Shown here in pieces: positions 28,443-32,290 of a DNA stretch of 64,000 nucleotides. Position numbers and translations under genes: made by a program. Location: contig NZ_JAEINN010000004.1 of the NCBI RefSeq assembly GCF_016342405.1, forward strand, positions 124,001 through 188,000, written 5' to 3'. Every line of letters starts with the position of its first letter. The stretch's first letter is position 1. Below the pieces are notes generated by a model that saw only the letters and a program-made list of their open reading frames with translations, was not told the origin of the DNA and did no database searches. This DNA is from Maridesulfovibrio ferrireducens. Lineage in GTDB: Bacteria; Desulfobacterota; Desulfovibrionia; Desulfovibrionales; Desulfovibrionaceae.

Positions 28443-29186
28443 ATGCCTGAGAAAGATTTACGAGTAGAGTTGTTATCCATGACCCCTAATGCCCTTGAAC
28501 TGATATACGCATCGTTCAGGCAGTGCTATCATGCAGGGTTTACTGCCGATATGTGGCCAAGACTTATAAGCGGCGAGATTGCTAAGGATAAGCAGGATGC
28601 TTTTGTTTCCGCTATTCTTGAATCAGGGCATGACAGTCCTATTGAACATGTCAGCTTTACGTTTGCAATTGAGGGTATCTCGAGGGCTTGTTCCCATCAG
28701 ATAGTCAGACATCGCATAGCGTCCTATTCGCAGCAGAGCCAGCGCTACGTTACTGAGAATGATATGGATTACATAATTCCTCCGGCAATAAAGAAAATTC
28801 CCGAAGCTCGTGAACGTTTTGAAAAGTTTATGGAAGAAGTCGGCAGCGCATATAAAGATTTGCGCGAGATTCTCGTTGCATCCGGGCGTGAAAGCAAAGC
28901 TAATGAAGATGCTAGATTTGTGCTTCCTCAGGCTGCTGAAACGAAAATTGTGATAACCATGAATTGCCGTTCGCTTATGCACTTTTTTAATTTGCGCTGT
29001 TGCCAGAGGGCGCAGTGGGAAGTTCGCATTATGGCCGATAAAATGCTGAAACTTTGCAAAGAAAGCCTTCCTGCAATATTCCGCAACGGCGGGGCAAGAT
29101 GTGAGCAGCTGGGGTATTGCCCAGAGGCTGAAAAGTTTGCTTGCGGTAAGTATCCAACATTAAAAGAGCTGACTGCGAAAAAATAA
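28443..29186 (+). CDS. thyX: Flavin-dependent thymidylate synthase
   Basis: The 247-residue protein holds the ThyX motif RHRIASYSQQSQRYV, where FAD and dUMP bind. It makes dTMP from dUMP with methylenetetrahydrofolate and NADPH and replaces ThyA. GGAG precedes the ATG. It stands next to the AT-rich region before dnaA, which links nucleotide supply to replication only by position. Confidence 0.93.
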   Translation: MPEKDLRVELLSMTPNALELIYASFRQCYHAGFTADMWPRLISGEIAKDKQDAFVSAILESGHDSPIEHVSFTFAIEGISRACSHQIVRHRIASYSQQSQRYVTENDMDYIIPPAIKKIPEARERFEKFMEEVGSAYKDLREILVASGRESKANEDARFVLPQAAETKIVITMNCRSLMHFFNLRCCQRAQWEVRIMADKMLKLCKESLPAIFRNGGARCEQLGYCPEAEKFACGKYPTLKELTAKK

Positions 29187-30051
29187 TCACTACATTATAT
29201 ATAGCATGCCTAAAAAAATAAAAGGCATATAGCTTATACTGAACCTGCCCATATTTTTGGGCAGGTTTTTTTGTTTTGGAGTGTTTTCATTTTTAATTAA
29301 ATATTTTTGATTATTATTTGCAAAAGAGAATCAAACGCCATTTTTTTAATTTTTTAGCAATTTTGTTAGTTGAAATGCCATTTTTGTCGTTTTAATCATA
29401 CTGTATGGGTGTGCAATCGCAGCATAATGTTATCTAAATAAAATTTATGGTGTGGATAGACTTTTGTTTAAAATTGATTGGTGTAAATCTATATGGACCT
29501 GATCCTTTGATTTGTATGCCTTTAGCGATGTCAAGCGAATGTAAATCCAATTAAATCAGCAAGTTGACAAATGTTCTAAAGTCCGAAATCTGTCAGGCCT
29601 TTGTTTTATTGGGTTTAGCTCACTGTTATTTAAAGATTGTTTTTTATAAGATATGCTGATTTATGGCGTTATTTTCTAATTATGACATTATATTAATATG
29701 TTACAAGGTGATAAAATGTTTTATCAGTATAAGTTCAAAATGATAATAATGAGAAGATATTTTACCTACAACGAGAGAAAAAGCGAAATTCTTTGAAAAA
29801 TCGAGATAAATTAATTTGATACTGTTTAAAAAGTTTTCAACAGGTGTTAATAAAAACGATGTTGACACTCGGGAGTCTTAGAAACACGCAGGTTTTCAGA
29901 ATTTTAAATATCCAGCCATAAACGCTTGAATAGTCAAAAACACTCAATAATACAGTGGTTTATCTTGTAGAAAAAGAAGACTCAAACATCGGGTGACCAG
30001 TGCTATATTGCGAGTTGATGTATTGATGTCCTTTGTCTTAGTTATCGCTCC
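29187..30051 (+). other. AT-rich gap before dnaA, possible replication origin
   Basis: No gene is seen in this 865-base stretch. It begins with a terminator (29243-29273) for thyX. A TGTGGATAG at 29451-29459 differs from the DnaA box TGTGGATAA by one base. At 29834-29853 TTTTCAACA and TGTTAATAA face each other across GG and look like two weak DnaA-box variants in opposite orientation. Two copies of a (A/G)CCATTTTT motif lie near 29338 and 29379. The region is long runs of A and T. An origin is possible but no dnaN or gyrB is adjacent; only the position upstream of dnaA supports it. Confidence 0.35.
29243..29273 (+). terminator. Rho-independent terminator after thyX
   Basis: The stem ACCTGCCCA / TGGGCAGGT surrounds a short T-rich loop and is followed by a run of seven T. 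Confidence 0.88.
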
Positions 30052-31401
30052 ATGATGACAGACAGCTGGAATAAAATTTTAAATTTTCTTGAGAAGGGTC
30101 TTAACCCCGGTCTATTCAAAGTTTGGATCAAACCTTTGAAGGCTGAAGTAAGTAACAACTCCATTAAGCTATATGCTCCTAATGAATTTGTTGCTGCATG
30201 GGTTAGAGACCGTCTTATAGACAATATTACTGAAGCCGGGACTCAGGTCCTAGGGGCTCGTCCGAAGGTTGAAGTCGGCGTTAAAAAATCTGCTGAGAAA
30301 CCAGCAGGTTTAGTACGTCCTAAAACCCCTCGACAGGTCCAAACAAGCATGGGGCTTCCCATGATGCACCCAGCTGTAACCAAAAAGATGCCGCGCTGGC
30401 GTTTTTCCTTCGATGACTTTATCGTTGGAGATTCTAACCAGTTGGCATGTGCCGCTTCGAGAAGTCTTTGCGATAACTCGTTGCCCGGTGATCAGCTTTT
30501 CCTGAGTTCAACTCCTGGACTGGGAAAAACACATTTACTGCATTCTATAGGTAAGGGGCTTTGTGCGACAAGTAATAAACAGCACGTTTCCATTGCCTGC
30601 CTTACAGCAGAAGAATTTGCAAACAGAATGGTAATGGCTCTTAAAGCAGGTGAGATATCAAGATTTAAATCTGAATTCAGAGATAATGTTGACTGTCTTC
30701 TTCTTGAAGATGTTCATTTCTTTCAGGGCAAGCATAAGATGCAGGACGAGATTCTCGAAACTCTGAAATGCCTCCAATTGCGCGGTTCAAAAGTCGTTAT
30801 GACAAGTTCTTTTCTGCCTCGTGAACTTGAAAAAGTTGATCCTCAGCTTGTATCCAGATTTTGTTCAGGACTTCTCGCGGTAATAGCCACTCCTGATTTT
30901 GAGACCAGAAAACGCATTGTACAAAGCAAAGCTATCCGTCTTGGTACTCAGGTCCCGGATTCTATCTCGGAACTGCTGGCAGACCGAATTACGACCGATG
31001 TAAGACAGTTGGAAAGCTGTTTGCAGAACCTCGTACTTAAAGCAAGACTGCTTAATAAAAATTTGACTCAGGATTTAGCTTGGCAGGTTCTTGAAAATTA
31101 TTCTTTGGAAAATAAAAATCCAAGTTACGATTCAATTGTAGACCATATCTGTCGTTCTTATGAACTTTCAGCCGACCAGTTGCGTTCCAAAAGTCGGAAA
31201 CGTCAGATTGTTCTTGCCAGAAACACAGCTTTCTTTCTCGCCCGCAAATATACCGAACTCTCTTTGAAAGATATCGGAGTCCGGCTTTGTCGCAGACATT
31301 CCACAGTCATTAAAGGCATTACTAATATTGAACGGGAAATTTCTCTGCAAACTCCTTTGGGAAGGCAGTTGCAGGATACCGTAGCTCGCTTGACTCCATA
31401 G
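30052..31401 (+). CDS. dnaA: DnaA-type replication initiator with altered motifs
   Basis: This 449-residue protein has domain I (about 5-62, with APNEFV at 42-47), a low-complexity linker, an AAA+ domain and domain IV. Walker A is STPGLGKT (153-160); the first Gly of the usual GGTGLGKT is Ser. Walker B is LLLED, not LIDD. Sensor II Arg is in VRQLES at 318. The DNA-recognition signature GGRDHTTV is changed to LCRRHSTV at 412-419, so Asp is replaced by Arg. No ribosome site is obvious before the ATG pair at 30052. It may be a true initiator with a changed box preference, or a second DnaA paralogue. Confidence 0.85.
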   Translation: MMTDSWNKILNFLEKGLNPGLFKVWIKPLKAEVSNNSIKLYAPNEFVAAWVRDRLIDNITEAGTQVLGARPKVEVGVKKSAEKPAGLVRPKTPRQVQTSMGLPMMHPAVTKKMPRWRFSFDDFIVGDSNQLACAASRSLCDNSLPGDQLFLSSTPGLGKTHLLHSIGKGLCATSNKQHVSIACLTAEEFANRMVMALKAGEISRFKSEFRDNVDCLLLEDVHFFQGKHKMQDEILETLKCLQLRGSKVVMTSSFLPRELEKVDPQLVSRFCSGLLAVIATPDFETRKRIVQSKAIRLGTQVPDSISELLADRITTDVRQLESCLQNLVLKARLLNKNLTQDLAWQVLENYSLENKNPSYDSIVDHICRSYELSADQLRSKSRKRQIVLARNTAFFLARKYTELSLKDIGVRLCRRHSTVIKGITNIEREISLQTPLGRQLQDTVARLTP

Positions 31402-31518
31402 CAGAACAGCGCTTTATGCGTTTTTTGTTGCTAAAGGATATTCATTGCATCCGGCTTTGATTTGTCGTAATACCAGCCCCCTTGTTTTAAACTGAAACGA
31501 AACTTTCAGGGGTAGGAA

Positions 31519-32223
31519 ATGAATTCCGATTTGTGGCATTCGATTAAAAAGAAATTAAAGGTCCGCATAAATCCGATTTTGGTTCGGGTATGGGTTGATC
31601 CCTTATCCGCCAGATATGAAGATGGTGTGGTTCAAATTACTGCGCCTAATGAATTTGTTATGAACTGGGTGCAGGAACATCTTCTGGGGTCGATTAAAGA
31701 TGCCGCGCAGGAAGTGCTTTCCGCTGAGGTTGGAGTTACAATCGCACTTAGTACGGATGATGAAGGTGTGCCGAATAGGCGTGAATTCATTACAGATGTG
31801 ACCGCTTATTACGCTGTTGAAGATATTTTAAGCAGTATTAACCGATTGCGAACTATTGTTCATAATCGGTATGGTCTTGAGTCCATAAATGTATCTGGTT
31901 CGATTGAGGTTGATCCATTGCCGGCGCTTGAACTTGAAGCACAAACCTTTGATTCAATTCTTGATGCTGTTCTAGAGGCTTTTGCTGTAAGCTTCAGGGA
32001 AATTATGGTGCAGGAAACTGACCATGCTGTTTTGGCCAGACGGGCCTTGTACTACCTGTGTGCCAGATATGACATCCCTCCTGAAGAGGTTGCTTTGAAT
32101 ATGGATTGTACTGTCTCAGAAGTGAAAGCCGGTGCGGCTGAACTTGAAGAAGAAATTGAATTTGCAATAGACAACGGTGATAATTTAGACGAGCTGCTTT
32201 TGAGGCTCTTCCGAAAAGATTAA
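31519..32223 (+). CDS. DnaA-like protein without the AAA+ ATPase domain
   Basis: The product has 234 residues. Domain I (4-62) aligns with DnaA: LWHSIKKKL at the start, NPILVRVWVDPL and APNEFVMNWV, with APNEFV at the same place (42-47) as in the gene upstream. The end (about 143-215) resembles domain IV: TFDSILDAVLEAF, VLARRALYYLCARYDIPPEEVAL, then MDCTVSEVKAGAAELEEEIE where DnaA has GGRDHTTV. The middle 80 residues contain no Walker motifs. It could bind domain I of DnaA and regulate initiation. CAGGGGTAGG precedes the ATG. It lies 117 bases after dnaA in the same direction. Confidence 0.7.
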   Translation: MNSDLWHSIKKKLKVRINPILVRVWVDPLSARYEDGVVQITAPNEFVMNWVQEHLLGSIKDAAQEVLSAEVGVTIALSTDDEGVPNRREFITDVTAYYAVEDILSSINRLRTIVHNRYGLESINVSGSIEVDPLPALELEAQTFDSILDAVLEAFAVSFREIMVQETDHAVLARRALYYLCARYDIPPEEVALNMDCTVSEVKAGAAELEEEIEFAIDNGDNLDELLLRLFRKD

Positions 32224-32253: not shown

Positions 32254-32290
32254 AAAAGGCCTGACTACTTTTAGTCAGGCCTTTTCTTTT
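32254..32290. terminator. Rho-independent terminator, bidirectional
   Basis: AAAAGGCCTGAC / GTCAGGCCTTTT flanks a short loop between the mini-DnaA gene and the convergent moeA. Confidence 0.9.

Follow-up and report, generated by a model that had tools for sequence, protein, structure and literature searches.

The locus considered here lies in a window of 64,000 nucleotides (the whole stretch of DNA that was analysed) and consists of a full-length second dnaA, whose product we call DnaA-W, followed by a short gene for a protein that carries both ends of a DnaA without the ATPase between them, hereafter mini-DnaA (Table 1). The short gene lies directly 3' of dnaA-W and on the same strand throughout the window's genus (17/17 genomes), at a distance of 109-348 bp, and in the window its start falls 1467 bp past that of dnaA-W, in agreement with an initial annotation which had placed a full DnaA 1.5 kb upstream. 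On the other side, an AT-rich gap of 865 bp separates thyX from dnaA-W, and the gene that comes after mini-DnaA varies between the loci inspected, being moeA in the window and a PhoH-family gene in G128, a complete genome of the same genus. Given the weak terminator-like hairpin between the two genes and the variable length of the gap, it is possible that mini-DnaA is expressed separately from dnaA-W. In seven genomes (L014, L015, L016, L017, L018, L020 and L022) a long A/T-run hairpin can be seen by eye in this gap, and 3' of it, in the same seven mini-DnaA upstream regions, there is a conserved block near GATATTCATTGCA or a variant of it, which may belong to a promoter of the mini gene's own.

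Table 1. Features of the dnaA-W/mini-dnaA locus, numbered from the first position of the window
Feature	Position	Strand	Evidence
thyX, upstream neighbour of dnaA-W	28443..29186	+	Pfam Thy1; synteny in 5/5 genus loci inspected
Inverted pair of DnaA-box-like 9-mers, 20 bp, about 210 bp upstream of dnaA-W	29823..29842	.	Conserved alignment block
DnaA-W, full-length second DnaA, 449 aa, AAA+ and basic domain IV	30052..31401	+	ORF; Pfam; NCBIfam DnaA 334.3 bits (cut-off 343.9); charge
Gap between dnaA-W and mini-dnaA, 117 bp, with weak terminator-like hairpin (5 pairs) at 31408-31422	31402..31518	+	Sequence; gaps in 17/17 genomes
mini-DnaA, AAA-less, 234 aa, whole gene	31519..32223	+	ORF; alignment of 17 orthologues; AF2 model
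Domain I, residues 1-78, DnaA_N fold with W6, L21, W25, N44, F46, W50	31519..31752	+	Pfam; PDB sequence matches 2e0g, 4tps; Foldseek 4tps; residue table
Variable linker, residues 79-141, mostly low pLDDT, one predicted helix 100-118	31753..31941	+	pLDDT; linker dN/dS
Degenerate acidic domain IV, residues 142-234	31942..32220	+	hhalign; Pfam 17/17; AF2; Foldseek; charge; residues
Terminator-like hairpin 3' of mini-dnaA, 14 pairs, T-rich tail	32254..32285	+	

At its N-terminus, mini-DnaA matches the Pfam family DnaA_N (PF11638) over residues 4-65 with 53.9 bits (E 1.4e-14; cut-off 24.6), and the three PDB sequences that match this domain (2e0g, 4tps and 8btg) are all DnaA. The elements N18-P19-x-L21...V24-W25 and A42-P43-N44-E45-F46-V47 carry identical residue numbers in mini-DnaA and DnaA-W, so the shared positions of NP-x-L-x-VW and APNEFV that had been pointed out from the sequence hold exactly. 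The NCBIfam model for DnaA (TIGR00362) recognises residues 6-82 only, at 34.7 bits against a cut-off of 343.9, a cut-off under which the full DnaAs of the window's genome also fall (334.3 for DnaA-W and 290.9 for the other, DnaA-N). No AAA family was found in mini-DnaA by Pfam at E<=5 (HMMER filters drop most matches above about 0.1); only about 63 residues separate domain I from domain IV, and this linker of about 60 residues occupies the position of domains II and III in DnaA. A match of residues 103-159 to 4qtp, an anti-sigma factor antagonist, had an E of 0.72 and was taken as chance.

The C-terminal end is more diverged, with Bac_DnaA_C matching residues 145-190 of the whole protein at 15.3 bits (E 0.02), under the Pfam cut-off of 31.5. 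When the isolated C-terminal 92-93 residues of 17 orthologues were scanned, this family was found at E<=1 in 17/17 (best E 2.5e-5), the window's own end reaching E 0.008 at 16.6 bits (cut-off 31.5), and other families were each found in at most 3/17 ends, with a best E of 0.044. Profile comparison by hhalign of the mini-DnaA end with 22 DnaA-W domain IVs gave E 2.3e-9 and a probability of 96% over 89 columns, and within its own genome the end aligns with that of DnaA-W at E 0.014. The AF2 model of the full-length protein is of modest overall quality (mean pLDDT 65.9, pTM 0.41, with pLDDT below 50 over residues 86-140), and Foldseek matched it to DnaA through 4tps (domain I; E 1.4e-4, TMt 0.81) and 3pvp (DNA-binding domain; E 0.03, prob 1.00, TMt 0.74). 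Modelled alone, the C-terminal domain reaches a pLDDT of 88.9 and a pTM of 0.79, and its nine best PDB matches are DnaA chains (3pvp, 8btg, 1j1v, 3r8f and 2hcb; prob 0.93-1.00). The best of these has an E of 9.8e-3 (prob 1.00) and none reaches E 0.001, so the claim of a domain IV fold rests on the agreement of four tests. A sigma-factor-like C-terminal domain was considered and rejected: Sigma70_r4_2 was matched in 3/17 ends (best E 0.13) and Sigma70_r3 in 2/17 (best E 0.044), and sigma-E region 4 ranks tenth in Foldseek (prob 0.33), behind the nine DnaA chains. These analyses confirm mini-DnaA as a clear domain I, a variable linker and a diverged DnaA domain IV without AAA+. The initial annotation had described a DnaA domain I and a domain-IV-like end with no ATPase between them, built from DnaA itself. 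This description is borne out, the end being more than domain-IV-like, and the refuting outcome it had named, no structural match to DnaA domains I and IV, did not occur.

A profile built from the 17 orthologues was used to search 348 genomes of the order, 17 inside the window's genus and 331 outside. Full-length mini-DnaA was found in 17/17 genomes of the genus (53-99% identity to the window's protein) and, among the matches listed, in none of the other 331, the best listed match outside the genus reaching 77 bits over residues 6-91, where it covers domain I in a frame that encodes an ordinary DnaA. In G181, G317, G251 and G060, all outside the genus, the profile matched twice, and a strongly diverged relative of mini-DnaA is possible there. 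In a phylum sample of 297 genomes the one full-length match was the window's own, its genome being the sole member of the genus with a match in that sample. The suggestion that the gene is specific to its lineage therefore stands, and the concern that it might be a random fragment of one strain is answered by its presence throughout the genus. A mobile origin was also considered and rejected, since tblastn against 50,697 phage records and 72,556 plasmid records gave no match, and with none of the 44 stretches that matched a pattern in a profile scan of viral contigs confirmed as mini-DnaA.

As regards ancestry, mini-DnaA scores 52-75 bits against 33/33 DnaA-W, in two or three matched stretches each, and only 5-11 bits against 16 DnaA-N (16/17 genus genomes, all save G155), which rejects descent from the origin-linked DnaA-N. 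Genus DnaA-W was compared in 15/17 genomes (G172 and G096 left out). A tree of domains I and IV was built from 48 sequences (17 mini-DnaA, 15 DnaA-W of the genus and 16 of other genera; L027 and L029 left out), and mini-DnaA sits in it on a single long branch of 2.9 substitutions per site. The best tree places mini-DnaA apart from the DnaA-W of its own genus with a weak support of 34, and the AU test rejects neither a grouping of the two (p 0.39) nor a position of mini-DnaA outside all DnaA-W (p 0.32). Judged by its position beside dnaA-W, mini-DnaA probably arose when the genus dnaA-W was duplicated in tandem in recent times; the simplest reading would be that such a duplication led first to rapid change and later to constraint.

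Constraint is evident in the gene today. Across ten orthologue pairs chosen from 136 possible, dN/dS was 0.06-0.16 for the whole gene, 0.00-0.10 for domain I, 0.00-0.10 for domain IV (three of these values having a saturated dS and a ratio printed as 0) and 0.13-1.13 for the linker, and mini-DnaA is thus under purifying selection. In domain I, W6, L21, W25, F46 and W50 are present in 17/17 orthologues and N44 in 16/17, the same residues as in the DnaA-W of the genus. W6 of Escherichia coli DnaA serves domain I dimerisation, E21 and F46 bind DnaB, and E21, W25, N44, F46 and W50 bind DiaA (PMC5448010). In mini-DnaA and DnaA-W alike, L occupies the place of E21, so the DnaB/DiaA face is not transferable from E. 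coli as such. Judged by its residues, then, domain I of mini-DnaA would be able to self-associate and to present the face that partners of DnaA normally use.

The other end of the protein has been altered in a quite different way. In E. coli DnaA, R399 reads the minor groove and residues 434-451 form the recognition helix, and R399A and T435M are defective in box binding (PMC5742627). In mini-DnaA the R399-equivalent is T, N or L, the H434-equivalent is V (17/17) and the T436-equivalent is E or D (17/17), whereas DnaA-W retains R and H at the first two positions in 31/31. The T435-equivalent is S in all 48 sequences, so it does not separate mini-DnaA from DnaA-W and not every position of the recognition helix has changed. 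The net charge of domain IV lies between -13 and -7 in the 17 mini-DnaA (mean -10.6, pI 4.2-4.6), against +6 to +9 in 15 DnaA-W of the genus (mean +7.3, pI 10.1-10.9) and +5 to +9 in 16 DnaA-W of other genera. The earlier proposal that the DNA-recognition signature is lost is correct as far as the R399- and H434-equivalents are concerned, both replaced in 17/17, but speaking of loss is too weak for a domain whose whole charge is inverted in all 17 orthologues. Moreover, 45/93 columns of this C-terminal domain are invariant, and such strong conservation of an acidic domain argues for a separate function, which simple capping through domain I would leave unexplained.

The identity of the neighbouring dnaA also matters for what mini-DnaA might do. 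Each of the 17 genus genomes has exactly two Bac_DnaA_C matches (E<=0.001), and dnaN adjoins the other dnaA, that of DnaA-N, in 7/7 genomes searched of the 17. The two full-length DnaAs, at L069:8606-10006 and at the dnaA-W locus of Table 1, are divergent from one another. In the complete genome G128 the GC skew, as sampled, passes from minus to plus at 4.22-4.25 Mb, where DnaA-N lies (4.234 Mb), and returns to minus at 2.10-2.30 Mb, with DnaA-W (3.548 Mb) lying within the minus arm. G100, also complete, has a weaker skew (-0.008 at 2.9 Mb), whose turn at about 3.09 Mb again coincides with DnaA-N (3.088 Mb), DnaA-W being at 2.418 Mb. Because the skew switches at DnaA-N beside dnaN, the pair of DnaA-W and mini-DnaA lies off the origin, about 0.7 Mb away. 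A second chromosomal origin at dnaA-W is likewise not supported, there being no GC skew switch at that gene in G128 or G100. The initial annotation had implied that the neighbouring dnaA encodes the initiator of the main origin, and this is not supported; with DnaA-W off the origin, control of initiation is not implied by the neighbour of mini-DnaA.

Canonical DnaA boxes are not enriched in the window, where exact TTWTNCACA occurs 6 times against 7.0 expected. Upstream of dnaA-W there is an inverted pair of box-like 9-mers, found in 16/17 genus genomes at <=1 mismatch (the window's copy has 1 mismatch to the pattern), with one other copy in all 17 genomes together. As seven of the dnaA-W upstream regions served to design the pattern, finding it there is in part a matter of construction, which does not apply to its near absence elsewhere. 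Such a pair would suit autoregulation of dnaA-W. Near dnaA-N, exact TTWTNCACA was seen once in L069 (inside a called gene), not at all in L076 and three times within about 1.7 kb in L075; with so few exact copies in the skew-origin region, the origin-bound DnaA may use another box. Regarding other replication factors, DciA is present in 17/17 genus genomes. No genus genome (0/17) has an Hda (TIGR03420) over the cut-off, but only 1/14 control genomes passes it, so variants outside the model are possible. The leading hits to the Hda model in the genus are the two DnaA frames, the rest lying in other frames, and mini-DnaA itself has no match to it at E<=5.

We propose, tentatively, that mini-DnaA derives from DnaA and regulates DnaA-W, or the partners of DnaA-W, in trans and in a dominant-negative-like way; of the readings considered this is the likeliest, though somewhat short of probable. 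Its domain I would hetero-associate with domain I of DnaA-W or, alternatively, would occupy the partners of the alpha2-alpha3 face, which in E. coli are the DnaB helicase and DiaA. Without an ATPase mini-DnaA should be unable to extend or activate an ATP-DnaA filament, and with the DNA-contact residues gone it is not expected to stay bound to a DnaA box. If both are lacking, then the protein would cap, dilute or sequester, and so would amount to a natural dominant-negative form of DnaA. The partner bound, the sign of the effect (whether it inhibits or assists) and replication as the target, in place of DnaA-controlled transcription only, are parts of this proposal that we infer.

A positive role needs to be weighed against this. 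Mini-DnaA might bridge DnaA-W (or DnaA-N) to the helicase or a helicase operator in the manner of DiaA or HobA, using domain I for one contact and its acidic C-terminal module for the other. A variable linker between two folded, conserved modules gives the protein the anatomy of a bridge, the alpha2-alpha3 residues are retained, and DciA, found throughout the genus, provides a helicase operator of the DciA type that could be assisted. However, DiaA and HobA have no domain I themselves and instead bind that of DnaA (PMC5448010), and since the listed matches include no full-length mini-DnaA in the other 331 genomes, such help would be dispensable there. On balance we think an adaptor rather unlikely.

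A further reading takes its lead from the charge inversion. If domain I docks on DnaA-W, then the acidic domain IV could act as a DNA mimic that occupies the basic domain IV of DnaA-W and blocks box binding, and hence DnaA-W autoregulation or the control of its target genes. The two domains are complementary in mean charge (-10.6 vs +7.3), the C-terminal domain is strictly conserved, with about half of its columns (45/93) invariant, and the inverted box pair, almost confined to the region upstream of dnaA-W, provides a target to compete for. The complementarity seen is one of net charge, though, which need not mean a phosphate-like layout of the acidic residues, and acidic domains are common, so that we consider mimicry quite unlikely. 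In the same vein, mini-DnaA could be a DnaA-derived anti-DnaA whose own copy of domain I grips DnaA-W while its charge-inverted copy of domain IV blocks the DNA-binding domain of DnaA-W, which the sequences make conceivable but, in our estimate, improbable. If true, this anti-DnaA would be an ATP-independent brake on an off-origin second initiator, in genomes without an Hda over the cut-off.

It is also conceivable that mini-DnaA has been neofunctionalised outside replication, for example as a transcription or stress regulator that uses its inherited folds. The long branch between it and DnaA-W (about 2.1-2.9 substitutions per site) and the slight similarity of some members to regions of sigma factors (Sigma70_r4_2 in 3/17, Sigma70_r3 in 2/17) would be in keeping with such a change, but the gene is a fixed neighbour of dnaA-W in 17/17 genomes while the gene downstream varies between the loci inspected, and the interaction residues of domain I have been retained, and we hold the idea to be slightly less likely still. 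A decaying duplicate or chance fragment, to which the missing domain III and diverged domain IV might point, is refuted by the conservation of an open frame without stops in 17/17 genomes, by dN/dS values far below 1 in both folded domains and by the confident C-terminal fold, and we give it next to no credence.

Returning to the proposed dominant-negative-like regulator, comparison with known systems sets out what would be new about it. Relative to DnaA itself (TIGR00362), mini-DnaA shares the sequence and fold of domain I, the fold of domain IV, the domain order, a location beside a dnaA and a closest relationship to the DnaA-W lineage, but it is without domain III, has R399 and H434 replaced, carries an acidic and not a basic domain IV and has 234 residues vs about 450. 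Hda is a DnaA-derived regulator that arose by domain loss, keeping the AAA+ and dropping domains I and IV. In mini-DnaA (by comparison with TIGR03420) the content is the reverse, the ends being kept and the AAA+ gone. YabA is a regulator that binds DnaA from outside, and SirA is not known to be built from DnaA; mini-DnaA differs from the latter in itself containing a domain I. SirA, DiaA and HobA also bind DnaA from outside (PMC5448010), with SirA of Bacillus subtilis binding domain I and stopping helicase recruitment (PMC10201431). The logic proposed for mini-DnaA would resemble that of SirA in acting on the domain I partner face (PMC10201431) and that of DiaA and HobA in acting via DnaA domain I on oligomer assembly (PMC5448010). 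DiaA and HobA are separate proteins that contact domain I and were never the matched chain in the Pfam or listed Foldseek results for mini-DnaA. No SirA, DiaA or HobA family is among its Pfam or NCBIfam matches, and SirA and HobA occur in the Foldseek results only in the titles of entries that include DnaA domain I. The second NCBIfam match of mini-DnaA, NF005206 (PRK06672; E 7.5e-5), is a family of hypothetical proteins with a DnaA_N-like stretch, which differs in architecture: residues 5-97 of mini-DnaA correspond to positions 194-285 of 341, at 21.9 bits against a cut-off of 416.

Titles and the starts of abstracts, with subscription journals sparsely covered, describe no protein like mini-DnaA, and within the same scope of titles and abstract starts the two-DnaA state of this order is not addressed. 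Nor was literature found on DVU2252, the locus tag of a second Desulfovibrio dnaA. Elsewhere, Rickettsia felis plasmids carry 'DnaA-like' genes (PMC1800911), and Acidaminococcus is reported to have two dnaA genes in one cluster, in a different arrangement (PMC4403523).

Taken together, the features of mini-DnaA point to an unstudied regulator of DnaA. A regulator made from the two ends of DnaA, with inverted charge at the DNA-binding end and maintained by selection throughout a genus, would be a mirror image of Hda and, if true, would mean that initiator paralogues can become partners or brakes. With mini-DnaA the two-DnaA state of the order as a whole also comes into view: of the 120 genomes counted, 88 carry exactly two domain IV hits, 21 carry one, 9 carry three or four and 2 carry none. 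Eight sampled genomes of the genus g51 have three or four such hits.
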